Below are positions 22,997 to 43,880 of a stretch of DNA of 64,000 nt, piece by piece. Each line of letters starts with the position of its first letter. Within the stretch, counting starts at the first letter, position 1. The notes beneath the pieces are model-generated. The model worked only from the letters and a program-made list of their open reading frames with translations. It made no database searches and was not told where the DNA came from. This DNA is from Serripes groenlandicus (lineage: Eukaryota > Mollusca > Bivalvia > Cardiida > Cardiidae): positions 1,715,333 to 1,779,332 of the forward strand of contig JASEVX010000032.1 of NCBI GenBank assembly GCA_031761405.1. The letters are read 5' to 3'. A program made the translations under genes and the position numbers.

Positions 22997-23282
22997 AGAA
23001 GATGCGTTTGCATCTGATAGTTATACGTACAAATCTATAATTTAATACAAAATAGAAAAAATAAGTAAAAGTGTCTACAGTTTCAGTTATGTTTTGATCG
23101 TTATTAACATATTGATGGTCTTTATTCTCGGAGGTTTGCGTTCTTGTTCCACGCTGTATCCAGTTTTAAATAATAAGATTGTCAAACACCTTTTTCTTGA
23201 CCGCATAATGATCACTAAGAAAGATAACGATGTACGTTTAGTTTATGCAAAGTAACACTGTATTACCTCCCTTTAAGTGTTT

Positions 23283-23477
23283 GACAGCTAGATAGTCTTG
23301 CGGATGCGTATATAGGTTACTCTGGATCTTCACTGGTCGTATATTCCCGAAGATCGGTTAATGTGTGACGTGGCTCTCTGTTATGTTTTACAACTAGATC
23401 GTCTTGGTCATATAGGTTACTCTGGATCTTCACTGGTCGTATATTCCCGAAGGTCGGTTAATGTGTGACGCGGCTCT
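23283..23477. repeat. ~100-bp minisatellite, first segment (before the LINE)
   Basis: Two units with 'ctagat(a/c)gtctt', 'ataggttactctggatcttc', 'actggtcgtatattcccgaa' and 'ggttaatgtgtgacg(t/c)ggctct'. The array resumes at 28328 and again at 34684, so it was split twice by retroelements. Confidence 0.85.
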
Positions 23478-23509
23478 AGTCCGTTTTCATAGGCTACCCT
23501 GCTAAATTA

Positions 23510-23863
23510 GTGGTAAAGGGAAAAGTGATTCATGATGAATTTCCCGATTGGAACCAAATGCTCAAGGAATCTCGAATTCAAAACCATAAACCGAACACCG
23601 ACAACCTATCTATTGACCCAATACCAACAACTTCACATACTGGTACAGGCCCCGTTCCCAGCAATCGAGATGAAATGGACTCTTCCACGGTGACACACTC
23701 ACAAAGCAAAGTGCCGGTCATTGAATCGGAATCCGAAAGTGACAGTGACTCTGAGATGTCAAACTACAACCAGGCAATGCAGCTTTTGGATTCATCCCAA
23801 AAACAAAAGCCAAACCCTAAAACAACAAATGAACTCTCCCAAGCTGGTACAGTGCAACCATAG
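23510..23863 (+). pseudogene. C-terminal end of LINE ORF1 (truncated)
   Basis: About 117 codons are open to a TAG at 23861-23863. The apparent start is GTG, and the reading is cut by the 5' truncation of the element, so the real start is lost. The sequence is polar with a serine/acid run ('ESESESDSDSEM') and no visible zinc knuckle. ORF2 follows in the same frame after this single stop, so the stop is either the natural ORF1 end or a nonsense change in a fused frame. Function inferred from position: ORF1 proteins bind element RNA. Confidence 0.55.
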
Positions 23864-26800
23864 GAACTCGGGGGAGGTGTTAACAATATAACCCCCAAAA
23901 ACATTTCCACTTCAATAGGAAAGGACAATATCATTTCAAATAACTGTTTGAACCAATTAAGTATTGCTTCTTTGAATGTTTGTGGTTTAAAGCGTAAGCA
24001 ACATATCCAGAATGTATTGAGCTTGTACAAAAATTTGACGTCTTGTGTGTAAACGAGTCCAAATTAGATAAATATGACCATATTAAAGCCCCAGGCTATA
24101 CTTTTATAAATGTTCCCAGGAAACAGAAGTTCAAAAGAAAATCTGGTGGCCTTGGAGCATTTATAAAAGATGACATCTTTCAATATTTTAAAATAATTGA
24201 GTCAAAAAGTGACTACTTGTTTTGGTTGAAGTTCACTGGAAGTGAAATTGTTCATGACCCAGTTATTATAGGTATTGTATATGTACCACCTTTACATTCA
24301 CGTTTCTATAGCAATGACATGTTTGAGGTGTTTGACAATGAAATATCAGAGATGAGTTCTAAATTTGAATATCTCTACCTATGTGGTGATTTCAATGCAC
24401 ATACTGGTGAATTAGTAGACTATACTACAAATGATGACTTTATCTCAGAGTACTTTCAATTCAATGAAGATTTAACTTCTTTTGTTAATCAAAAAGCACT
24501 TCTACTTGAAAATGGCATTAAACTTAAAAGGTGCTCACCTGACAGTAAAAGAAATAATCATGGTTATAAACTTATAGGTACTTGTAAGAACAATAACCTT
24601 ATAATTGTCAATGGGCGAACCACAGGTGATATCCCTGGAAGGATGACTTTCAGGAACATCTCAGTAATTGACTACTTTATTTCTTCTGTCAAAGGCTATG
24701 ATCTTATAGATGCATTTGAAATACAAGAACTAGACCCACTGTTTTCTGATGGGCATTTTATTCTCCAATGTAAAATCAATATAAAAATAAAAACTTCTGC
24801 CAAAAATAAAAAAAAAATGCAATGCAAAAAATGGAACAAAAACCTTAAATATAATTTCACAAATAGCATATGTGAAAACGAGGTAGCCACTATCTTGAAA
24901 GACTTATTTAGTATCACAAATACAACTTTTGAGCAAGATAAACTGGATAAAATTGTTGAAAAACTAACAGGCATTTATATTAACAGTGCTGAAAAGACAT
25001 TTCCAGGAAAAAAATCATTTAACATTACCAACAACCCACAAAAACCATGGTTTGGCCCTGATTGTAAAAAGGCTAGAAAGTTGTACAGTAAATCCAGGAA
25101 AAAATATTGCAAATACCCCACATTAGAAAACAGAAATGTATATTATTCTAAGAGTAAAATATACAAAAAAACTATGAATAAATATAAAAACTACTATAAT
25201 AAAATAAATGAAAACAAATTAAGATTACTAAATAGCAAAAACCCCAGAGACTATTGGAAATACCTTAACTCCATAAATGCTAAGGATAAAGGGGAAATGC
25301 CACCCCTTGAATCATTATACAAACATTTCAGGGAAGTAAATAATGATTTATCTCATGAACATGATGATCAATCTATATTAAGCCAAATTAATCTAAATGT
25401 GGATAATATGCTGAATTCTCCATTTACTCCAGAAGAAATATCCAAATGTATAAAAAACTTACAGAATAATAAAGCCCCAGGAATAGATGGAGTTATAAAT
25501 GAATACATAAAATGCTCTCAAGAGAAGCTTTTACCTGTTTATGTGTCACTATTCAACATTATACTAAATCATGGGGCCTTCCCTTCACAATGGTCTTTAG
25601 GAACCATAATACCTATTTATAAAAACAAAGGGGATAGAACAAACCCTGAGTGTTATCGCCCCATCACACTACTAAGCTGTGTTAGTAAATTATTCACTTC
25701 TGTACTAAATACAAGACTAAGCACCTTTTTAGACAGAAATAATATGTTGTCAGAGAATCAAGCTGGATTCAGATCAGGTTACTCAACTACTGACCATGTA
25801 TTTACAATTAACTCATTAATTGAACTTTTTAAATTTCATAAACAAAAATTATTTTGCTGCTTTATTGACTTTTCCAAAGCATTTGACTCTGTCTGGCGAA
25901 TAGGATTATGGTCTAAGTTACTAGAAACTAACATAAATGGTAAATTCCTCCTATTAATTAGAAATATGTACAAAGATATAAAGTCTTGTATCTCATCTGA
26001 AAATGACATGTCTGACTTTTTCTCCTGTAACTGCGGGGTCCGCCAGGGCGAAAACTTATCGCCGATCCTCTTCTCCCTATTCCTGAATGATCTTGAAGAT
26101 TTTTTAAACAAACAGGGAAACGAAGGACTTAAGTTTGAAAACCCTGACTTGAACATCATTTTAAAAATACTTGTCTTACTCTATGCAGACGATACAGTTT
26201 TGATAGCTGATCAACCCCAAAAATTGCAATTATGTCTAAATAGTTTCGACAATTATTGTAAAACATGGAAATTACATATTAATTTAGAAAAAACAAAGGT
26301 AATGATTTTCGGGAGCAGGAGTAAATCTAGGCACACATTCCATATCAACAATAGCCAAATTGAAATTGTGAAATCATATAAATACCTTGGCACTTACTTC
26401 ACCAACTCTGGAAATTTCCTAGTAAATAGAAAACATTTAGCAGAGCAAGCCAAGAAAGCTCTGTTTTATTTTTACAAAAGAATCAATAACCTAAACTTGC
26501 CACCTGACCTGATCTTTAAACTGTTTGACAATACTATATCTCCAATACTGCTGTATAATTCAGAGATCTGGGGTTATGAAGATAAAAAATTGCTAGAAAG
26601 AATACTTTGTACTTTTATTAAAAAGTATTTACATCTGAAAGCCAGTACACCTAATTACATGGTATATGCAGAAACCGGGAGATACCCACTAGAAATTAGT
26701 ATTAAAACAAGAATGATAGGCTATTGGATCAGACTTATTACTGGAAAAGAAAGTAAAATAGCACACAAAATCTACAAAATTCTTCTTAACACACAAAACT

Positions 26801-27378
26801 TTAAATCAAAATGGATCACTGAAATTAAAAGCATTCTAACTGAAATAGGTCGACAGGATATTTGGCTAAACCAAAATACATATTTACATAATAACACAAA
26901 ATCTTTGGTGAATAAAATCCTGATTGACCAATACCAACAACAATGGCATAGCAATCTTGAAATTTCTTCTAAGGGTAAAATATATGGTATGTTCAAGGAA
27001 AATATAAATTTGGAACACTATTTTACACAAATTCCGAAAAAGGACTATTTAACCTTAGTAAAATTCAGAACATCAAATCATTACTTACCAATTGAAACAG
27101 GGAGATGGAATAATATACATGTTGAGGCAAGGAAATGTAAACTCTGCAACCTTAATGACACTGGTGATGAAATGCACTACCTGTTAATCTGCCCTTATTT
27201 TCACTGCCAACGCAAACTCAATTTAAAACCATATTACTATACCAAACCTAATGTGTTAAAATTTAAACAAATTATGAATGTAAGATCTGTGAAACAATTA
27301 CACAAATTAAGTACATATATTTTACTAATCAGTAACTTTTTCAAAAACAATTGGCAAGCACCAAATGAAACTAGATAA
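23864..27378 (+). CDS. LINE ORF2: AP-type endonuclease and reverse transcriptase
   Basis: Numbering from base 24043. The first endonuclease block ('IASLNVCGLK', about 23960-23995) lies in the frame of 23510. One base is missing near 24030 ('tacaaaaattt'), after which the 1111-codon frame runs unbroken to TAG... the stop at 27376-27378. Endonuclease blocks: 'NESKL' just after the shift, 'GDFNAH' at 115-120, 'SDGH' at 235-238 in place of the usual SDH. RT: 'FIDFSKAFDS' with D609, 'GVRQGENLSPILF', and YADD at 714-717. A C-terminal zinc finger C1032-x2-C1035-x9-H1045-x4-C1050 closes the protein. There is no RNase H. The protein nicks target DNA and copies its own RNA there. Apart from the one-base lesion the enzyme core looks intact, so insertion is recent. 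It is of the jockey/CR1/L2 sort; exact clade not decided. Confidence 0.85.
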
Positions 27379-28147
27379 AGTATTTATACACACAGTACTT
27401 TTGAATGGCATTCTGTTACATAAGCAGCAACAAATATGTTTATAAAATATAAATAAGCAATTATAACTTACTCATTTTCCTGTCAGTAACACAGCACTAT
27501 CCAAATGTACAATTGACACTGGTAAATAACTAAACCGTTTTATCCTCACTATTATATATAGAATTAAAACTGAAAACGATTACTTAATGGCACTCTCTAC
27601 AGATTATATCACATCACAACTTGCAAGTTAGCATTTAAATCCATTTCTAACACACTAAAATCAACACAATTCCTAAAACATCACATGACGGAACGGGTTT
27701 TACCCCTATTGTTTACACATATTGAGTTATGCATTATGTTTGACTTCCCAAAATGTTGCGATTGTAAAATAACCTTTCCCTAATTCTGTCATTAGAGACT
27801 TGTATTAGTATACAAAGAGAACATTGTGAAAATTGGTGCGATGGCTTATTATGCCTGATCGCATCACTGAACACAATGTTACTACTTTTCCTTAAAATAA
27901 CAATCATTATTGTTTTTCCACATCTGAAAACACTTAGTAAAAGTTTAACAAAGTCCATATGAGGGAAATGTTACGCATTGTGTTTGTCTTACTCGGAATT
28001 CCATGTAAACTATAGTCTATTTCTACTATTGGACTCTCTCTTACTCCAATAAAACTAAAATCTACTAGACTATTCACAAAATAAAACTTTTGGCTCAGAA
28101 ACTCGGAAACTCCATGCACCCATTTCCCTCTAACCTCCCCTAGAATA

Positions 28148-28151
<4 letters not shown>

Positions 28152-28227
<76 letters not shown>
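28152..28227. repeat. (CT)n microsatellite in the LINE 3' region
   Basis: A nearly pure dinucleotide run of about 75 bases. Confidence 0.97.
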
Positions 28228-28231
<4 letters not shown>

Positions 28232-28327
28232 GTGACTTAATAATTGATATATTGTGAATTTGTAAATTTATATCTCTTGTATCTTGTATTTAGATTAGAG
28301 AAATAAAACGAGTATGTATGTATGTAT

Positions 28328-28664
28328 GTTATATTTAACAACTAGATCGTCTTGGGCATATAGGTTACTCTGGATCTTCACTGGTCGTATATTCCAGAAG
28401 GTCGGTTAATGTGTGACGTGGCTCTCTGTTATGTTTTACAACTAGATCGTCTTGCGGATGCGTATATAGGTTACTCTGGATCTTCACTGGTCGTATATTC
28501 CAGAAGGGAGGTTAATGTGTGACGTGGTTCTCTTATGTTTTACAGCTAGATCGTATTGCGTATATAGGTTACTGTGGATCTTTACTGGTCGTATATTGCA
28601 GAAGGGAGGATAATGTTTGGCGTGGCTCTCTGTTATGTTTACAGCTAGATCGTCTAGCGTATAT
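28328..28664. repeat. ~100-bp minisatellite, second segment (between LINE and Ngaro-like element)
   Basis: Just over three units. Some copies carry an extra 'cggatg' after 'cttg', making 106 instead of about 97 bases. The last unit has private variants ('tattgcag', 'ggataatgtttgg') that reappear at 34684-34755. Confidence 0.9.
28593..28664. repeat. Left copy of the 72-bp duplication flanking the Ngaro-like element
   Basis: Runs from 'atattgcagaagggaggata' to 'ctagcgtatat' and abuts the element. It is identical to 34684-34755, including changes not seen in other array units. Confidence 0.85.
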
Positions 28665-28893
28665 TTTTACCAATAGATGAAAGAATTTCCATCAAATTCA
28701 AAGAGAATTGATTTTCGCCTGTCTCGCCCTTCAGTCAAATAAATGAAAAGGAAAATTGCCTACACGTGTTTAATTAACCACAAGGAATAATATTATAAAT
28801 GAACGACAATGAATAGCACTGAAGGGAACAAGATAGGTTCTCGGTTCTGCACAGTCCCTGTAAACGGTTTTGACCCTTAATGTTCAAAACTTA
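28664..28893. repeat. Terminal direct repeat of the Ngaro-like element, 3' end
   Basis: 230 bp beginning 'tttttaccaatagatgaaag' and ending 'gttcaaaactta'. It matches 34454-34683 at a constant offset of 5790. I find no further copy of a 'B' segment, so the split A1-B1A2B2 pattern typical of Ngaro is not confirmed. The first T may belong to the flank. Confidence 0.9.
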
Positions 28894-29182
28894 TTACAGA
28901 GGACAACTGCAGATAATTTAAAATTACACACATTTAATAAAATATTTGACAATGTAAATTCAAAACAATACATTTCTTCTTAGTTGTTGGCGGAATCTGG
29001 CCACAGCTTCCCAAAAGCTTATAACATGTAAACAACAGATGAGCCCTGGTGACAGAGACCCACACTGCTTATTTAAAGTCCAATTACTTCACACAATAAT
29101 TCAGATTGACAACAACTACTGGTGGAGGTATTCCCCGCCACATGGCGAAGCCATACCGCCACCAGCAAAACACAACATTGTT
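28894..29182 (-). other. 3' untranslated part of the Ngaro-like element
   Basis: Non-coding, between the hydrolase stop and the terminal repeat. The sequence at 29122-29376 also reads open on the plus strand, but this is a shadow of the hydrolase gene and flank. Confidence 0.5.
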
Positions 29183-29830
29183 TTATGAAAGATGGCCAGA
29201 TTTCCCACTGTCTGGAAATACCTTATTATCAGAAAAAAGGAACTGATCTAACCCTTTTTTTAACGTCTTTAAAAACATTTCATGACCTGTTGCCGACAAA
29301 TGCACCCCATCACAAAAAAGGAGGTGGTCATTCTCAACTATGTCAGGGTAACGTAAATACTTGCCTCCCTTATTAAGAATAAAGGATGCTATACCATTGT
29401 TTACCCTTTTTCTAGACCTTTCCAAAGCTTTATGATTTTGTTCTCCCCTCCAATGAAGTCTTGGAAGAATTTGCGACCACACCATAGTTGCCTGTGGGAG
29501 AATAACTGAAAGTTTCAAGAAATCTTGTTTAATTAAATGTAAGAGTGCAGCAGTTGTTTTTTGACCAATATCATTTCCACCACAGTGAATGACTAGCAAA
29601 TCTGGCGATTCTTGCACTGTTAATAGATGCCTGATTAAAGGAATACACTTATTCCATACCAGTCCACTTCTACCCTGCCAAAATATTTCCACTAGTCCTG
29701 CCATGCCAAGCTGCGAACCGTTTTCACCACAGCTCCTTGCATAACAAAAGGCTCGTTTTATAATTGATGACCCAATAATCCATATCAGCTTATGGGCATC
29801 TGAAAAAGACTTAATACCTCGGTCAGTCAT
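29183..29830 (-). CDS. SGNH/GDSL-type hydrolase encoded by the Ngaro-like element
   Basis: 215 codons from a true ATG. Block I is 'IWIIGSSIIK' (residues 16-25) with the likely nucleophile serine at 22. Block III is 'HCGGNDIG' (82-89), where N86 would serve the oxyanion hole. Block V is 'DGVHLSATGHEMF' (174-186) with D174 and H177 completing the triad. This is the esterase/lipase-like SGNH fold. Genes of this sort are known as an extra frame at the 3' end of some Ngaro and related retroelements, where their role is not settled. It lies 42 bases downstream of the recombinase stop on the same strand, so it probably shares the element transcript. No signal peptide or membrane segment is evident. 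Confidence 0.8.
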   Translation of the reverse strand: MTDRGIKSFSDAHKLIWIIGSSIIKRAFCYARSCGENGSQLGMAGLVEIFWQGRSGLVWNKCIPLIRHLLTVQESPDLLVIHCGGNDIGQKTTAALLHLIKQDFLKLSVILPQATMVWSQILPRLHWRGEQNHKALERSRKRVNNGIASFILNKGGKYLRYPDIVENDHLLFCDGVHLSATGHEMFLKTLKKGLDQFLFSDNKVFPDSGKSGHLS

Positions 29831-29872
29831 GAGATCACTGAACTCCGAGGCTGAAAGGTTGTGAAATCAAAT

Positions 29873-30874
29873 TCACTGACTCAATGTAAGGACGTCAGAC
29901 GGAATTCTGATGTATGATTTAAATGCACAAGATTTCCATCTGCCGTAGGATTGAATCTTTTCATCGGATAACCCATTTCTTGAAGCAGTTGTAGCTGCTC
30001 CAATCCGAAAGGAATGACATTTGTAGTTAGCGTTTTGCAACCCCAACATATTAAGTGATTTCTTTAATACAGCTGCAAACTGATAACGTGTAACTGGTAG
30101 GCTATTTAAATGACAAAAAAGATAAATGCAATTCAATGATTTTCTCATTTTTAAATAAAGTAACATATGTCTTACAGGGCAAGTCACTTTTCCTGTGTTT
30201 GGTATAATTAAAACGACTCCATGACCTTGCTGATCAGTTTTTGAAGACCTTAGAAACACTTTTATGGCTGAATTTCCATTTTCTAAATGTAGATCATTGA
30301 CTCGAAGAGCATGGCCTTCATTATTTAAACTTGAAATAACAAGTTCTCCAACTCGAAAAAACCCAAAAAATGCCAAAGAGAAAACTGCACTAAAAAGCTC
30401 TGCTTCATAGCTAGTGTAGCAAACTGTTGGTAAGGTTCGCAAAATTCGCTCAAGCAATTCATGAGTTATTGGTAGCCTTGTATCAACTCTTCTATGCATT
30501 TTTTTAAACCCATTTAACATTTTAGAAATGATGAAATTACCTGTTGGGTCTGATAAATCCTTTACTTTACAAGCAAATGCAATACCCGATATGTAACACC
30601 TAGCAGTACTTGGAGACATACCCTTTAATGACATAAATGCAATGAAATCGATGACAACCCCCAGAGGCGGTGGCCAAATATCTGCATGATCATTAATTAA
30701 CCTGAATTCAGAGAAAAGCTTAAGAGCCGATTCATATGAAGCTTTAGTATTCACCGCAATACTATTACTAATTAAGAGATCGACTTGAGATTGAATAGCC
30801 AGTGGTGAAACATATCCGGAATTGGCTCCCCTGCTGTACTGGCTTCTGGAGCTACCTCTCTGAAACGCTGCCAC
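29873..30874 (-). CDS. Tyrosine recombinase of the Ngaro-like element
   Basis: 333 codons are open, and the apparent first codon is GTG rather than ATG. The frame overlaps the RT/RNase H frame by 103 bases in another frame, which suggests translation by frameshifting or from a spliced or alternative message. Residues about 25-125 form the N-terminal core-binding domain. Catalytic residues of the family are all visible: R174 in 'GFFRVGEL', K212 in 'RSSKTDQ', H287 and R290 in 'CHSFRIG', W313 in 'GRWKS' (the H/W position), and nucleophile Y321 in 'KSYIR'. The enzyme would insert the DNA copy by site-specific recombination, in place of a DDE integrase. Length is normal for the family. Confidence 0.9.
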   Translation of the reverse strand: MAAFQRGSSRSQYSRGANSGYVSPLAIQSQVDLLISNSIAVNTKASYESALKLFSEFRLINDHADIWPPPLGVVIDFIAFMSLKGMSPSTARCYISGIAFACKVKDLSDPTGNFIISKMLNGFKKMHRRVDTRLPITHELLERILRTLPTVCYTSYEAELFSAVFSLAFFGFFRVGELVISSLNNEGHALRVNDLHLENGNSAIKVFLRSSKTDQQGHGVVLIIPNTGKVTCPVRHMLLYLKMRKSLNCIYLFCHLNSLPVTRYQFAAVLKKSLNMLGLQNANYKCHSFRIGAATTASRNGLSDEKIQSYGRWKSCAFKSYIRIPSDVLTLSQ

Positions 30875-32472
30875 TGACGACGAGAAAGAGAGTCAGCTTT
30901 AACATTGGAAATACCCTCAACATGCACTGCCTTATACTTAATACTGAAGCGCATGCATATCAGTATTAACGGACGTAAAAGCTGCATAACAAGCTTAGAC
31001 TTTGAAGATTTCTTGTTAAGGATGCTTACCAGGGACTGATTATCAACATACAAAAATATTTTCTTTTTCTGTAAGTATTCAGACCAAACACAAAAGGCTA
31101 AGAGGATAGGCACCAATTCTAAGAAAGTTATGTCATCAAACATATTAGACCCTCTCCAGTTCACTGGCCAAGGGTAAAATACCCAGCTACTACCAAATAC
31201 AGCAGCACAACCTAAATTTGGTGAACCAGCACTATCTGTGTATAGCTCAAGAGTTTCATTATCTGACCAATCCAACTCAGGAAAGCTGCAGTAACCATTA
31301 AAGTTTTTCAAAAAAGAAAGCCATAAACAAATATCTTCCTTCATAGGCAAAGTTACTCTAACATGGTGAAACGGCTTAAATAAGCCACACATCGCATCAT
31401 AGAAACGCCTGTTAAAAGCCCGAGCTACAGGAATGGCCCGAGTACAAAAATTGAGAAGTCCAACAAGGGACTGCAATTCTTTAAGAGTAACCTTTTTCTT
31501 TTGAAGAAGAGAAACGAGACTGGACTTCAATTTGTGAAGTTTATCCTCAGGCACTTGAATTTGAAAAAGTATTGAATTCAATTCTAGACCAAGAAAGACA
31601 AGTATTAAAGTTGGTCCTACAGTTTTACCTTCTGCTAAAGGGACCCCTATTGATGCACACATCTTTTCAAAGTTTGACATAGTCTGAACACATAAGGTGG
31701 ACCGAGATTTACCTAAAAATATGAAATCATCCAGATAGTGATGCAAATAGCTAGCTGGATGTAGGTACTTAAAAAGCCATTCCAAAAATGTTGCAAATTT
31801 CTCCCAAAGAGCACAAGAGATAGCGCAGCCCATAGGCAGCATTTTATCTACAAAGTAATAACCTTGCAAACGAAAACCGAGCAAGCAGAAATCATCAATA
31901 TGTACTGGCAAAAGCCGAAAAGCACTTTTAATATCCATTTTACCCATTAAACATTTATTTCCAAGATAAACAATGGAATTAATTACCTCATCCATTGAAG
32001 TATAATTGACAGAACATAAATCTTGATCAATATAGTCATTTACACTAGATCCTGTTGGGTATGATAAATGGTGAATTAATCTCCAAGTTCCATCTTTTTT
32101 AGGAACAAGCCCTATTGGGGAACACTTAAGATTACCAAAAGGACAAGTCTTGAATGGACCTGCAATTCTACCCAAAGACACCTCCTTCGTTACTTTTTCA
32201 AGAGCAATATCTGGGTTCTGTTTCACTGACAAAAGATTTTCACATTCAGTACTCATTCTAGGACCATCAAAATGTAAAAGAAAACCCTTTGTAAACCCTT
32301 CAGCCAAGATCAATGCATCCTCAGAAACAGGATATTCTTTCAAATATTTTAACAAAGGGCCAACCCTAATTGGGGTTGGAGCAATAGAAAGCAAATCAGT
32401 GGTGCAGCATGAAAGGCCTTTGCGCTGTTGAGGGTCTTGGTCGAGATGGAACAATTCCCCCAGGGGCTGCAA
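30772..32472 (-). CDS. Reverse transcriptase / RNase H of the Ngaro-like element
   Basis: 566 codons are open and the apparent first codon is TTG. The frame overlaps the gag-like frame by 77 bases (+1 relative to it). RT blocks: 'GLVPKKDGTWRLIHHL' (121-136), 'GKMDIKSAFRLLPV' with D180, 'LPMGCAISCALWEKF' (212-226), and the catalytic YLDD at 246-249. The connection domain has 'LKELQSLVGLLNFC', typical of DIRS-order RTs. RNase H residues D413 ('YTDSAG'), E452 ('FLELV'), D477 ('YVDNQS') and D527 ('KADSLS') are all present. It copies element RNA and removes the template strand. The frame is intact and the catalytic residues complete, so the element may be capable of autonomous movement. Confidence 0.92.
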   Translation of the reverse strand: MQPLGELFHLDQDPQQRKGLSCCTTDLLSIAPTPIRVGPLLKYLKEYPVSEDALILAEGFTKGFLLHFDGPRMSTECENLLSVKQNPDIALEKVTKEVSLGRIAGPFKTCPFGNLKCSPIGLVPKKDGTWRLIHHLSYPTGSSVNDYIDQDLCSVNYTSMDEVINSIVYLGNKCLMGKMDIKSAFRLLPVHIDDFCLLGFRLQGYYFVDKMLPMGCAISCALWEKFATFLEWLFKYLHPASYLHHYLDDFIFLGKSRSTLCVQTMSNFEKMCASIGVPLAEGKTVGPTLILVFLGLELNSILFQIQVPEDKLHKLKSSLVSLLQKKKVTLKELQSLVGLLNFCTRAIPVARAFNRRFYDAMCGLFKPFHHVRVTLPMKEDICLWLSFLKNFNGYCSFPELDWSDNETLELYTDSAGSPNLGCAAVFGSSWVFYPWPVNWRGSNMFDDITFLELVPILLAFCVWSEYLQKKKIFLYVDNQSLVSILNKKSSKSKLVMQLLRPLILICMRFSIKYKAVHVEGISNVKADSLSRRQWQRFREVAPEASTAGEPIPDMFHHWLFNLKSIS

Positions 32473-33286
32473 ACCTAAAATTAGACCTCATGTTATTATT
32501 ATTACCAGTACTTGTACATACTTTAAAAGAATGACTCCCACCACATTTAATGCACTTGTGTGTAAATGTGCAAACCGATCTTTGACAGATACCCTTGTAA
32601 TTGAAATCATAGCACTTAAACTTAACTTGTTCATTAGCCACTTGTGGCTTAGGTCGACACATAAACAGCATCCACAATTCCTGATCGACCACTGCCCATG
32701 ACATTTCTAAGGACTGAGCCATTTTTAGCCTGAACGGCTCATCATAAGATATCCAGCCATTTACAGTATATTGCTTGGCCCCAAATCTCACAGTATGGAG
32801 GTATTTGAGCATGTCGGCATACTGATCACTGTGCACTTGGCAGTAAACGTCCATATACACTATGAAAGCATCCGTCCATGCCTCTATACTAGATATACGT
32901 CTTATGGTTTTTGGCATAAGATTGATGCTTCCATTTGAGTCTAACGTGAGCACTTGTCCCATGCTATTTTCAGGCGTTAACAGAATTGATAAGTTTACAT
33001 ACTCCCTGTTACAAATTTTTTGTTTCAATCCTAGGGAAACTTGGCTAGAAATTCCATTACTAACTAGCCCCACCTGGACCTCACCTGAATCTTTTGGTTC
33101 TGGTTCAATCCTAGGTGGCAGCAAGGGCAACAACTTTTCAGCTACCTTCTCAACCACCATATTCAGCTGCGAATCGGACAGAGCGGTAGGCGCATCCGTC
33201 ACCAGCGTTGGTGGAACCTCTGGTGCCTGGTCATCCACGACTGCAGCCTCATGACGCCTACTAGTTTTTCGTCTTGCCTTAGGCAT
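32396..33286 (-). CDS. Gag-like protein of the Ngaro-like element (CCCH finger and zinc knuckle)
   Basis: 296 codons from a true ATG. A basic N-terminus ('MPKARRKTSRRHE') is followed by a proline/valine-rich linker and a helical central region with 'IEAWTDAFIVYMDVY', a wording common to DIRS/Ngaro gag-like proteins. Near the C-terminus is C-x8-C-x4-C-x3-H ('CYDFNYKGIC' to 'CTFTH'), a CCCH finger. Directly after it comes a C-x2-C-x3-H-x4-C knuckle ('CIKCGGSHSFKVC'). It probably binds the element RNA. The following RT frame begins before this one ends, suggesting a +1 shift for the fusion protein. Confidence 0.75.
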   Translation of the reverse strand: MPKARRKTSRRHEAAVVDDQAPEVPPTLVTDAPTALSDSQLNMVVEKVAEKLLPLLPPRIEPEPKDSGEVQVGLVSNGISSQVSLGLKQKICNREYVNLSILLTPENSMGQVLTLDSNGSINLMPKTIRRISSIEAWTDAFIVYMDVYCQVHSDQYADMLKYLHTVRFGAKQYTVNGWISYDEPFRLKMAQSLEMSWAVVDQELWMLFMCRPKPQVANEQVKFKCYDFNYKGICQRSVCTFTHKCIKCGGSHSFKVCTSTGNNNNMRSNFRFAAPGGIVPSRPRPSTAQRPFMLHH

Positions 33287-34453
33287 AATCAGCGAAACAA
33301 AACAATATTTCTGAAAAAGTGTTTAGGCACTTTAGCAATTGTTTTTCAGAAGAAATAGATATATAACTTGGGTCAATACTTGACCTTTAGGCTTTAGCTA
33401 AAATAAATAAATGTTAACAGACAATCCAGTGCCAAGCTAATTTCTCTAGGGCAGCCAGCAATATACCCAATGGGTTATGAAATAAATTTAATAAAGCGGA
33501 TAACAATAAGAATATATTTCGCCAATTTCGATGTCGGTCAATTACAAACAATCTGGTGCCGAGTCAATAACTCTTGGGCAGCCAGCAATATATCTTTTTT
33601 ATAAAAATTGAAGCAAAAACAATAATAAACAAATATTGCGCCAATATCGCTGTCAATGAAGTACAAACAACCTGGTGCCGAGTCAATTACTCTTGGGCAG
33701 CCATCAATATAACATGAAAATCATGAAGAGAACAACAATAAACAAATATTTCCCCAATGTTGCTGTGATGCGAACATGTCATACCAATTTAGACTTATAT
33801 ATTCCAAAACTCCTTTTTCCAATATAAAAATTCAATGCAATGCACTTATCGGTGAGTGTCAATCTATCAGGCTGTCAACAATCTAAGTAACCATTCAAAA
33901 CAAAATATTCAAATGTGTAAAGATCTAAGCAACAAATAAAAAGTGTACAGGGCTACTTTTCCAGTGTTATGCTAAATACGTCCTTGTTTAACCATAAAAA
34001 TGACCTAGCAATCTGGCACTGAGCCAATTTCTCCTATGCAGCCAGATGCCTCTAGGATTTGTGTATGTAGGATTCAACAACACAGAAACATACACTGTAT
34101 CATGCAAATAATCGATACACCTTAATTCCTTTTCGCTACAATGATTTAAGCGTTTCCAGCTAGATCACAAATCGAGGCAGTAAGCCACCAATAACAACAA
34201 CAAAACATAGACCACGAACAGGGGATGGGGTGCCTTAAAAGTAAATTATAGTGCTCAGCGAGGGAATATAATTGTCACTGAAACGATAATTCGAGAGTTC
34301 ACATTTCCTTTCAAGGTCAACCAATATTGAAAACGGCACCCCACCCACCATCATTGCATCAGTCAATACATGATCAAGCTAATATTAAACAAAGCTACAT
34401 TGCATGTAGGTTGAACACTAACATAGGGTTATACCAAGCCCCATTACACCAAT
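33287..34453 (-). other. 5' leader of the Ngaro-like element with ~122-bp internal repeats
   Basis: A non-coding leader of about 1.17 kb. The phrase 'aatctggtgccgagtcaat', then 'ctcttgggcagccagcaata', occurs near 33423, 33547 and 33667 and in a diverged form near 34009. The first three are spaced by about 122 bases. This resembles promoter or packaging repeats found in some retroelement leaders, but no function is shown by the sequence. Confidence 0.65.
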
Positions 34454-34683
34454 TTTTTACCAATAGATGAAAGAATTTCCATCAAATTCAAAGAGAATTG
34501 ATTTTCGCCTGTCTCGCCCTTCAGTCAAATAAATGAAAAGGAAAATTGCCTACACGTGTTTAATTAACCACAAGGAATAATATTATAAATGAACGACAAT
34601 GAATAGCACTGAAGGGAACAAGATAGGTTCTCGGTTCTGCACAGTCCCTGTAAACGGTTTTGACCCTTAATGTTCAAAACTTA
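34454..34683. repeat. Terminal direct repeat of the Ngaro-like element, 5' end
   Basis: Identical by eye to 28664-28893. It is immediately followed by the right copy of the 72-bp duplication. Confidence 0.9.
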
Positions 34684-34925
34684 ATATTGCAGAAGGGAGG
34701 ATAATGTTTGGCGTGGCTCTCTGTTATGTTTACAGCTAGATCGTCTAGCGTATATAGGTTACTCTGGATCTTCACTGGTCGTATATTCCATAAGGGAGGT
34801 TAATGTGTGGCGTGGCTCTCTGTTATGTTTTACAGCTAGATCGTCTAGCGTATATAGGTTACTCTGGATCTTAACTAATCGCATATCCTGGAAGGTCGAT
34901 TAACGTGTGACGTGGCTTTCTGTTT
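34684..34925. repeat. ~100-bp minisatellite, third segment, starting with the right 72-bp duplicate
   Basis: 34684-34755 repeats 28593-28664 exactly. The array then carries on with 'aggttactctggatcttcac', and about 1.7 more units follow, the last diverged ('ttaactaatcgcatatcctg'). Confidence 0.9.
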
Positions 34926-34974
34926 GTAACTGTATGCCTTATACACGGTTCTTATTCCTTTACTCTAACACACA

Positions 34975-38768: not shown

Positions 38769-41700
38769 TATTGTTAGTCACTACCGCAAGAGTGTCAGGG
38801 GACATTGTTGGTCACTACCGCTAAAGTGTCAGGGGATATTGTTGGTCACTACCGCTAGGGTGTCAGGGGACATTGTTGGTCACTACCGCTAGAGTGTCAG
38901 GGGACATTGTTGGTCACTACCTCTAGAGTGTCAGGGGACATTGTTGGTCACTACCGCTAGGGTGTCAGGGGACATTGTTGGTCAATACCGCTAGAGTGTC
39001 AGGGGACATTGTTGGTCACTACCGCTAGGGTGTCAGGGGACATTGTTGGTCACTACCGCTAGAGTGTCAGGGGACACTGTTAGTCACTACCGCTAGAGTG
39101 TCAGGGGACATTGTTGGTCACTACCGCTAGAGTGTCAGGGGACATTATTGGTCACTACCTCTAGGGTGTCAGAGGACATTGTTGGTCACTACTGATAGAG
39201 TGTCAGGGAACATTGTTGGTCACTACCGCTAGGGTGTCAGGGGATATTGTTGGTCACTACCGCTAGAGTGTCAGGGGACATTGTTGGTCACTACCGCTAG
39301 AGTGTCAGGGGACAGTGTTGGTCACTACCGCTAGGGTATCAGGGGACATTGTTGGTCACTACCGCTAGAGTGTCAGGGGACATTGTTGGTCACTACCGCT
39401 AGGGTGTCAGGGGACATTGTTGGTCACTATCGCTAGAGTGTCAGGGGACATTGTTGGTCACTACCGCTATAGTATCAGGGGACAGTGTTGGTCACTACCG
39501 CTAGAGTGTCAGGGGACATTGTTGGTCACTACCCATAGATTGTCAGGGGACATCGTTGGTCACTACCGCTAGAGTGTCAGAGGATATCGTTGGTCATTAC
39601 CCATAGATTGTCAGAGGACATTGTTTGTCACTACCGCTAGAGTGTCAGGGGACGTTGTTGGTCACTACCGCTAGAGTGTCAGTGGAAATTGTTGGTCACT
39701 ACCGCTAGAGTGTCACGGGACATTGTTGGTCACTACAGCTAGAGTGTCAGAGTACAATGTTGGTCACTTCCGCTAGAGTATCAGGGGAAATTGGTGGTCA
39801 CTACCGCTAAAATGTCAGGGGACATTGTTGGTCACTACCGCTAGAGTGTCAGCGGACATTGTTGGTCACTTACGCTAGAGTGTCAGGCGAAATTGTTGGT
39901 AAATACCGCTAGAGTGTCAGCGGACAGTATTGGTCATTACCGCTAGAGTGTCAGGGGACATTGTTGGTCACTACAGCTAGAGTGTCAGGGGACATTGTTG
40001 GTCACTACTGCTAGAGTGTCAGAGGACATAAGTATTGCAGGTCACTACCGCTTGAGTGTCAGGGGACATTGTTGGTCACTACCGCTAGAGTGTCAGGGGA
40101 CATTGTTGGTCACTACCGCTAGAGTGTCAAGGGACATTGTTAGTCACTACCGCTAGAGTGTCAGCGTACATTGTTGGTCACTACCGCTAGAGTGTCAGGG
40201 GTCATCGTTGGTCACCACCGCTGGAGTGTCACGGGACATTGTTGGTCACTACTGATAGAGTGTCAGAGGACATAGGTATTGCTGGTCACTACCGCTTGAG
40301 TGTCATGGGACATTGTTGGTCACTACCGCTAGAGTGCCAGGGGACATTGTTGGTCACTATCGCTAGAGTGTCAGGGGACATTGTTGGTCACTACCATTAG
40401 AGTTTCAGTGGATATTGTTCGTCACTACCGCTAGAGTGTTAGGGACATTGTTGGTCACTACTGCTAGAGTGTCAGAGGACAAAAGTATTGCTGGTCACTA
40501 CCGCTTGAGTGTCAGGGGACATTGTTGGTCACTAACGCTAGAGTGTCAGGGGACATTGATGGTCACTACAGCTAGAGTGTCAGGGGACATTGTTGGTCAC
40601 TACTGCTAGAGTGTCAGTGGATATTATTGGCATTGTTGGTCACTACCGCTAGAGTGTCAGGGAACATTGTTTTGCACTCTCGCAAGAGTGTCAGGGGACA
40701 TTGTTGGTCACTATCGCTAGACTTTCAGGGGACATTGTTGGTCACTACCGCTAGAATGGACATAATTATAATTATTGCTGGTCACTACCGCTTGAGTGTC
40801 AATGGACATTGTTAGTCACTATCGCTAGATTGTCAGGGGGCATTGTTGGTCACTACCGCTAGAGTGTCAGGGGACATTGTTGGTCACTATTGCTGGAGTG
40901 TCAGTGGATATTGTTGGCATTGTTGGTCACTTCCGCTAAAGTGTCAGGGGACATTGTTGGTCACTACCGCTATAGTGTCAGGGGACATTGTTGGCATTGT
41001 TGGTCACTACCGCTAGAGTGTCAGGGAACATTGTTGATCACTCTCGCAAGAGTGTCAGGGGACATTGTTGGTCACTGTCGCTAGACTTTCAGGGGACATT
41101 GTTGGTCACTACCGCTAGAATGGAATGTCAGGGGACATTGTTAGTCACTACCGCTAGAGTGTCAGAGAACATTGTTAGTCACTACTGCTAGAGTGTCAGA
41201 GGACATAAGTATTGCAATAAACTACCGTTTGAGTGTCAGGGGACATTGTTGGTTACTACCGCTAGAGTGTCAGGGGACATTGTTGGTCACTACCGCTAGA
41301 GTGTCAGCGGACATTGTTGGTCACTACTGCTCGAGTGTCAGGGGTCATTATTGGTCACTACCGCTAGAGTGTCAGGGGACATTGTTGGTCACTACTGCTA
41401 GATTGTCAGAGGACATAAGTATTTCTGGTCACTACCACTTGAGTGTCAGCGGACATTGTTGGTCACTACCGCTAGAGTGTCTGGGGACATTGTTGGTCAC
41501 TACCGCTAGAGTGTCAGGGGTCATTTTTGGCCACTACCGCTAGAGTGTCAAGGGACATTGTTTGTCACTACCGCTAAACAGTCAGGGGACATTGTTAGTC
41601 ACTACCGCTAGAGTGTCAGAGGATATTGTTTGTCACTACCGCTAGAGAGTCAGGGGACATTGTTGGTCACTACTGCTAGTGTGTCAGAGGACATAACTAT

Positions 41701-43880
41701 TGCTGGTCACTCCCGCTTGAGTGTCAGGGAACATTGTGGATCACTACCGCTAAAGTGTCAGAAGACATTGATGGTCACTACTGCTAGGGTGTCGGGGGAC
41801 ATTGTTGGTCACTACAGCTAGAGTGTCAGTGGACATTGTTTGTCACTACAGCTAGAGTGTCAGAGGACATAAGTATTGCTGGTCAATACCGCTTGAGTGT
41901 CATGGGACATTGTTGTTCATTACCGCTAGATTGTCAGGGGACATTGTTGGTCACTACCGCTAGAGTGTCAGGGGACATTGTTTCTCACTACCGCTAAAGT
42001 GTCACGGGACATTGTTGGTCACTACCGCTAGAGTGTCAGGGATCATTATTGGTCACTACCGCTAGAGTTTCAGGGGACATTGTTGGTCACTACCGCTAAA
42101 GTGTCATGGGACATCGTTTGGTCACTACTGCTAGAGTGTCAGAGGACATAAGTATTGCTGGTCACTACCGCTTGAGTGTCAGGGTATATTGTTGGTCACT
42201 ACCGCTAGAGTGTCAGGGGACATTGTTGTTCATTACCGCTAGAGTGTCAGGGGGCATTATTGGTCACTACCGCTAGAGTGTCAGTGGATATTGTTGGCAT
42301 TGTTGGTCACTTCCGCTAGAGTGTAATGGGACATTGTTGGTCACTACCACTAGAGTGTCAGGGAACATTGTTGGCATTGTTGGTCACTACCGCTAGAGTG
42401 TCAGGGGACATTGTTGATCACTCTCGCTAGAGTGTCAGAGGACATTGTTGGTCACTACCTCTAGAGTGTCAGGGGACATTGTTTGTCACTACCGCCAGAG
42501 TGTCAGGGGACATTGTTGGTCACTACCGCTAGAGTGTCAGAGTACATAGGTATTGCTTGTCATTACCGCTAGCGTGTCAGGGGACATTGTTGGTCACTAC
42601 CGCTAGAGTGTCAGGGGACATTTTTTGTCACTACCGCTCTAGTGTCAGGGGACATTGTTTGTCACTTCCGCTAGAGTGTCAGGGGACATTGTTGGTCACT
42701 ACCGCTAGAAGGTCAGATAACATAAGTATTGTTGGTCGCCACCACTAGAGTGTCAGTGGACAGTGTTGGTCTCTACCGCTAAAGTGTCATAGGACATAAG
42801 TATTGCTGGTCACTACCGCTAGAGTGTCAGGGGACATTGTTGGTACCTACCGCCAGAGTGTTAGTGGACATTGTTGGTATTGCTGGTCACTACCGATAGA
42901 GTGTCAGGGGACATTGTTGGTCACTACTGCTAGAGTGTCAGGGGACATTGTTGGTCACTACCGCTAGAGTGTCAGTGGACATTGTGGGTCACTATCGCAA
43001 GAGTGTCAGGGGACATTGATGGTATTGCTGGTCACTACCGCTAGAGTGTCAGGGGACATTGTTGGTATTGCTGGTCATTACCGCTAGAGTGTCAGGGGAC
43101 ATTGTTAATATTGATGGTCACTACCGCTAGAGTGTCAGGAGACATTGTTGGTCACTACCGCTTGAGTGTCAGAGGACATAGGTAGTGCTGGTCACTACCG
43201 CTAGAGTGTCAGGGGACATTGTTGGTCACTACCGCTAGAGTGTCAAAGGACATTGTTAGTCACTACTGATAGAGTGTCATTGAACATTGTTGGTCACTAC
43301 CGCTTGAGTGTCAGGGGACATTGTTGTTCTCTACTGCTATTGTTTCAGGGGACATTGTTGGTCACTACCGCTAGAGTGTCAGGGGACATTGTTGGTCACT
43401 ACCGCTGGATTGTCAGGGGACATTGTTGGTCAATATCCCCTGGAGTGTCAGAGGACAGTGATGGTCACTACCGCTAGAGTGTCAGGGGACATTGTTTGTC
43501 ACTACCGCTAGAGTGTCAGGGGACATTGTTTGCATTGTTGGTCACTACCGCTAGAGTGTCAGGGGACATTGGTGGTCACTACCGCTAGACTGTCAGGGGA
43601 CATTGTTGGTCACTACCGCTAGAGTGTCAGGAGACAATGTTGGTCTCTACCGCTAGAGTGTCAGGAGACATTCTTGGTCACTACCGCTATAATGTCAGGG
43701 AACATTGTTGGTCACTACCGGTAGAGTGTCAGGGGACATTGTTGGTCACTACCGCTAGAGTGTCAGAGGACATTGTCGGTCTCTTCCGCTTGAGTGTCAG
43801 GGGACATTGTTTTTCACTATCGCAAGAGTGTCAGGGGACATTGTTGGTCACTACCCCTAGAGTGTCAGGGGACACTTTTT
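38769..43880. repeat. 5.1-kb minisatellite, 34-bp unit, about 150 copies
   Basis: Unit 'ggtcactaccgctagagtgt', then 'caggggacattgtt' (34 bases). Most units differ by 0-4 bases. A longer variant with 'cataagtattgctggtcact' and 'cttgag' in place of 'ctagag' recurs irregularly from about 40030 to 43170 (spacing roughly 170-450), as does 'ttgttggcattgttgg'. These mark higher-order blocks. Because 34 is not a multiple of three, a plus-strand reading passes through all three frames and meets the 'tag' once per three units. The many 60-120 codon frames here are therefore artefacts of the repeat, not genes. Confidence 0.97.

Follow-up and report, generated by a model that had tools for sequence, protein, structure and literature searches.

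We analysed a window of 64,000 nucleotides of the bivalve Serripes groenlandicus (positions 1,715,333 to 1,779,332 of contig JASEVX010000032.1, here C986, in the 1.76-Gb assembly GCA_031761405.1), where a tyrosine-recombinase (YR) retrotransposon lies in a minisatellite array between two identical 72-base sequences. The most probable reading of this 72-base repeat is that faulty DNA repair left it as a scar, not that a new mode of insertion produced it. The insertion itself was probably ordinary, at GGTCGT-ATA-TTGCAG, because the right end is canonical, 18 other copies of the family show no duplication and four other insertions into arrays leave the array continuous. Judged by comparison with those copies, the left edge of the window element is not a recombinase end, because the segments called B2 and C are missing; it is the inner edge of the repeat called A. 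Since the left boundary is this inner edge, what a preliminary description of the window had called a 72-bp flanking duplication is one odd left junction and does not lie between true ends. The features concerned are listed here, with a slash marking a joint:

28327 to 28664, no strand: left part of the minisatellite, unit of about 100 bp, unbroken across unit X and ending 20 bp into unit Y
28593 to 28664, no strand: left copy of the 72-mer, the last 52 bp of unit X and the first 20 bp of unit Y, an overshoot beyond the insertion site
28657 to 28671, no strand: aberrant left joint GCGTATAT/TTTTACC, array fused to a T-run at the inner boundary of repeat A, the boundary being taken from a 20-copy comparison
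28664 to 28893, minus strand: repeat A2, 230 bp, identical to A1 by sequence comparison
28894 to 29140, minus strand: repeat B1, 247 bp, whose partner B2 is missing in this copy together with the 113-bp segment C
29183 to 29866, minus strand: open reading frame (ORF) with an SGNH/GDSL hydrolase domain (PF13472, 33 bits, cut-off 32.9)
29873 to 30892, minus strand: tyrosine recombinase ORF (PF00589, 27.6 bits, cut-off 27.1)
30772 to 32487, minus strand: reverse transcriptase/RNase H ORF (PF00078, 49.3 bits; PF17917 below its cut-off)
32396 to 33322, minus strand: gag-like ORF, named by position alone, no Pfam match
34454 to 34683, minus strand: repeat A1, the true right (5') end, ending in AACTTA, from comparison with other copies
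34684 to 34686, no strand: target core ATA at a canonical YR junction; NTA follows CTTA in all 18 other copies with both ends read
34684 to 34755, no strand: right copy of the 72-mer, original array sequence to the right of the insertion site
34684 to 34930, no strand: right part of the minisatellite, the remainder of unit X, then units Y and Z

The two junctions

The reported identity of the two 72-mers was confirmed: exactly 72 of 72 bases agree and the sequences diverge on either side. Their variants (GCAG, GATAATGTTTGG and TTTACAG) do not occur in the remaining units of the window array, as had been stated, nor in the end units of three related element-free arrays (L051-L053). The right junction, which had been placed inside a cgtatat motif, is indeed a true YR junction with the core ATA and falls within unit X. 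On the left, the array flank overshoots the insertion site by 72 bp before it joins the A boundary, with a microhomology of 0-2 nt; the T at 28664 can be assigned to either side.

Other copies of the family

Twenty other copies of the element were fetched at length. In the orientation of the window the block order of the family is B2 (247 bp)-C (113)-A2 (230)-B1 (247)-ORFs-A1 (230), which on the element strand reads A1-ORFs-B1-A2-C-B2, i.e. the split direct repeats of Ngaro. All the blocks were present in 17 of the 20 copies, two of these (L031 and L042) with internal deletions; the incomplete ones were L040, with a shortened B2, and L034 and L050, with no A1 within the stretch. The full left (B2) end was found in 19 copies and A1 in 18. 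The outer ends of the family are left flank/TTACAGAGG and AACTTA/NTA-right flank, the three bases after CTTA being TTA in 14, ATA in 3 and GTA in 1 of the 18 copies with both ends read. The proposal that cgtatat approximates the target core therefore has to be replaced, as the flanks of these copies give NTA.

The left end was read at 27 other loci (L002-L027 and C875), and 25 of them have the full TTACAGAGG end. The two exceptions were L011 (the same copy as L040), which lacks 144 bp of B2, and C875, which starts around 6 bp inside B2; a BLAST comparison of the left and right flanks of L040 found no shared sequence. Segment C directly adjoins A2 in all 28 other A2 loci read, that is, these 27 and L056, whose outer left end was not read; a divergent A2-B1 match at C113:15364293 (92%) was not read and stands outside the counts. 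The window copy is thus the sole one of the A2 loci read without B2 and C, and the boundary that had been taken for the end of the element is the inner edge of A, short of the real end by the 360 bp that the other copies have. At the left end of the copy on C875 (163052-167528, L028-L030) there are three tandem 590-bp B-C-A units, as if they came from unequal exchange or circles.

Of the 18 copies read at both ends, none had an exact flanking duplication. A suffix/prefix test of the flanks gave nothing in 17 of them and, in L031, only inexact multiples of its 37-bp period. Four of the 18 lie in tandem arrays (L031, L041, L048 and L049), and for these the flanks were joined with the core taken once and aligned to intact array elsewhere at the same locus. 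All four spanned the junction without gaps, over 138 bp at 95.7%, 139 bp at 87.1%, 111 bp at 90.1% and 124 bp at 85.5% respectively, so the joined flanks are continuous array with neither duplication nor phase shift. The possibility that array targets in general bring a duplication was rejected; an array target alone does not cause one. L033 is not in an array (0 matches spanning its junction). The joined flanks of the window copy aligned to array only with gaps, the best alignment having 169 columns, 80.5% identity and 2 gap openings. Integration at a short core without duplication is thus the pattern of all 18 other copies, from which the window copy departs on its left side. The 72-mer was not found flanking the other copies whose ends were read, which argues against its being part of the element, the outcome that the preliminary description had named as its own refutation.

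Classification of the element

The element is a Ngaro-type YR retrotransposon, in agreement with the YR retroelement identity given before. It encodes reverse transcriptase/RNase H and tyrosine recombinase on the same strand, as expected of Ngaro-like elements, and its family has the split direct repeats A1 ... B1-A2-B2, although the window copy is without B2. A1 and A2 of the window copy are identical in 230 of 230 positions. The four ORFs gave no Pfam match to an integrase and, at E<=0.01 in a profile search only, none to a methyltransferase (MT) domain; the YR ORF matched no sequence of a solved structure at E<=1. The homology search with the reverse transcriptase ORF gave 1892 matches; among the best 120, all six with an organism in the name were from bivalves, with identities of, for example, 56% to Pinctada imbricata, 52% to Pecten maximus, 50% to Saccostrea cucullata and 49% to Mercenaria mercenaria.

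Long terminal repeat (LTR) retrotransposons make a target duplication of 4-6 bp, carry terminal repeats at both outer ends and encode a DDE integrase. This class was rejected for the element, which has a tyrosine recombinase and no integrase match, and whose family has different outer ends, B2 and A1. In the element leader (33380-33780 of the window) we noted by eye degenerate repeats with a GGCAGCCAGCAATATA motif, and the corresponding part of L041 and L048 has a 119-bp period according to Tandem Repeats Finder.

According to passages of a study of Xenopus elements (PMC9210276), Ngaro has A1 and B1-A2-B2 repeats, no MT and, in amphibians, an SGNH ORF after the YR. The window element is like these SGNH-bearing Xenopus Ngaro in its gag-like, RT/RH, YR and downstream SGNH ORFs, in the split direct repeats and in that no MT was found; its family is unlike them in having the 113-bp segment C between A2 and B2, which the window copy has lost together with B2. 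According to passages of PMC3266345, DIRS1-like elements integrate through a 3-bp junction sequence and leave the target unduplicated, just as this family does. However, they have inverted repeats, termini that are mostly NTT (commonly ATT) and an MT, whereas the core here is NTA. Among the titles and beginnings of abstracts listed from an open-access subset of the literature we found no paper announcing a long target duplication in Ngaro or DIRS, which is a weak negative.

Origin of the 72-base repeat

The most likely reading, whose chances we put slightly above even, is an ordinary Ngaro insertion with a damaged and repair-scarred left end that has lost B2 and C. The element would have inserted normally, without target duplication, and a break would have struck its left end, either at some later time or when the sister or homolog did not yet have the insertion. 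Having lost B2 and C, the array side of the break would have invaded the same locus on an element-free copy and been extended to 72 bp beyond the insertion point (the rest of X and the first 20 bp of Y) before it dropped off. End joining would then have linked the nascent end to the opposite side of the break, at the A2 boundary, through the 0-2 nt of T-rich microhomology, so the pathway would be aborted synthesis-dependent strand annealing (SDSA) plus end joining. The same product would result from a circle that carried 72 bp of flank and came back in by homologous recombination, and this variant is included in the reading.

An empty template would be a natural source of the overshoot, because the left flank is intact array in the unit order W-X-Y and units Y and Z recur in element-free array: the last two units of L051 are Y then Z, in the same order. 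Furthermore, a flank followed by a low-homology joint is the structure that aborted SDSA plus end joining would leave, and a single non-homologous joint suffices. The event seems to be young, because A1 and A2, as well as the two 72-mers, are identical throughout. According to passages of PMC2895639, most of the products recovered in wild-type Drosophila after excision of P{wa} arise when repair synthesis stays incomplete and the ends are then joined. Both cases would share the copying of a homologous template that stops early and the end joining of the nascent end, but in that account the break is made by transposase excision and the template is the sister, whereas here the break is inferred and the template would be without the element. 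The earlier idea that a second array copy was involved thus survives in part: an element-free copy probably took part, although not through a two-site recombinase exchange.

Several observations weigh against this repair. The joint falls exactly on the A boundary, for which the chance is around 0.8% (within 2 bp, over 590 bp), and this boundary also carries a novel joint in a second aberrant copy, C113:46241402. Unit X is absent from the three related arrays read (L051-L053), so that neither the donor allele nor an empty site with X was found there. Finally, both edges do touch cgtatat, as had been noticed, and random breakage does not predict a joint near the end of this motif; with 9 copies of it in 585 bp of array, 4.6% of random breakpoints would lie within 1 bp of the end of a copy and 12.3% inside or at the edge of one.

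The preliminary description had tentatively explained these edges by a recombinase exchange between two cgtatat sites on sister arrays, which duplicated the DNA between them. The right junction is indeed a YR junction at cgtATAt, but the left edge has neither the recombinase end TTACAGAGG nor a matching core, the four other array insertions are clean, and the missing B2 end contradicts such an exchange unless B2 and C were lost afterwards; we regard it as very improbable. A tandem duplication of around 68 bp, made by slippage between cgtatat copies before a normal insertion at the hybrid site and a later deletion of B2 and C, would also place both edges at cgtatat without any special insertion event, and both sites have the 7 bases CGTATAT in common. 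However, a clean deletion would give a GCGT/A boundary, whereas the full GCGTATAT is seen, so that either a filler of 2 nt or a substitution has to be assumed as well. This origin takes three events, and the element must have hit the single hybrid site. None of the units read in three related arrays (13 complete ones of 100 bp and 3 last ones) is of this short kind, so this origin is improbable. We give the same low chance to an assembly artefact in which empty and filled haplotypes of a repetitive locus were chimerically joined. C986 is merely 1.86 Mb long, as against chromosome-size contigs, and lies in a segmentally repeated region with close matches in C1:17.0-17.5 Mb and C833, but chimeric joins usually run through long identity and the left joint shares 0-2 nt.

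The A boundary

Genome-wide, the start of A was matched with at most 2 mismatches in 79 places. Judged by eye from the coordinates, C adjoins in 33 of them and 41 are the joint of A1 with its neighbour INT, as identified from fetched copies or from the 100 listed of the 112 places that a search for the INT/A1 motif gave with up to 3 mismatches. Three places have no assigned neighbour (C963:99189830, C491:434389 and C852:15130353), and the two exceptions are the A2 of the window and C113:46241402. At the latter (L057 and L058; C113:46241150-46241640) B2 abuts A with nothing between them, and TTA and flank come after this A at a canonical right end; its outer left end was not read, and it is a B2-A1 mini-element, a possible non-autonomous derivative. 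The A boundary is thus found joined to four sequences: INT, C, B2 and, in the window, array. On chromosome-size contig C852, 12 of the 79 places lie within around 1.1 Mb (28.4-29.5 Mb), 7 of them A1-type without a partner A2.

The INT/A1 joint has five forms in 19 copies, whereas the C/A2 joint is T6 in 19 of 20, a minor allele shared by at least 5 of 19 copies occurs in only one of 5569 internal columns, and A/T runs elsewhere in the element hardly vary wherever the anchors matched. This variability points to a joint that reverse transcription makes anew at the A boundary. The tree of the 19 internal regions is star-like, with 18 informative columns of 5569, and does not decide whether the INT/A1 variants arose repeatedly.

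These data would also allow an origin of the window joint during reverse transcription. The A boundary (GGTAAAAAA on the element strand) would be the normal transfer point of T-ended cDNA from the RNA 5' end to A2; on the left, the chromosomal 3' end GCGTATAT-OH would have been used at the A acceptor, tethering the cDNA to the chromosome; on the right, the recombinase would have joined the A1 end to the ATA site 72 bp upstream on the sister or homologous array. We consider this route unlikely. The four partners of the boundary and the variable INT/A1 joint speak for it, and a model of Ngaro reverse transcription with annealing between repeat portions has already been proposed, as a passage of PMC6681497 mentions. 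On the other hand, this route needs chromosomal priming plus a YR event on another chromatid, and target DNA stands at the A boundary in none of the 28 other A2 loci read. We know of no precedent for chromosomal priming in Ngaro. Moreover, the mini-element joint shares CC with the INT/A1 side and may be a plain internal deletion, and part of the INT/A1 variability may go back to an old A/T variant, the family being star-like. Slightly more doubtful still is the broader proposal that the A boundary is a promiscuous strand-transfer acceptor of Ngaro reverse transcription, which normally receives the end of the cDNA and here received that of a broken chromosome; the result would be a half-recombinase insertion, primed by the target and with a long duplication of it.

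Surroundings of the element

Together with its right flank, the 100-bp minisatellite is part of a segmentally repeated region (C1:12.7-17.5 Mb, C833, C948 and C986) in which array lengths vary between loci. A non-LTR retrotransposon at 23478-28326, whose ORF (23998-27378) matches endonuclease/reverse transcriptase and whose 3' tail consists of GTAT repeats, separates two minisatellite pieces, 23278-23477 and 28327-28664; therefore, the array was hit by two insertions around 340 bp apart. A long GC-rich tandem array with a 34-bp unit and around 145 copies occupies 38770-43874, the remainder of the window being AT-rich.

Implications

With the repeat read as a repair scar, an apparent exception to the rule that YR elements insert without target duplication is removed, and the family of young copies fixes the real ends of the element and its NTA core. 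The A boundary, as a recurrent joint, opens the strand-transfer step of Ngaro to direct test; if this boundary were indeed promiscuous, such promiscuity would have produced the B2-A1 mini-element as well.

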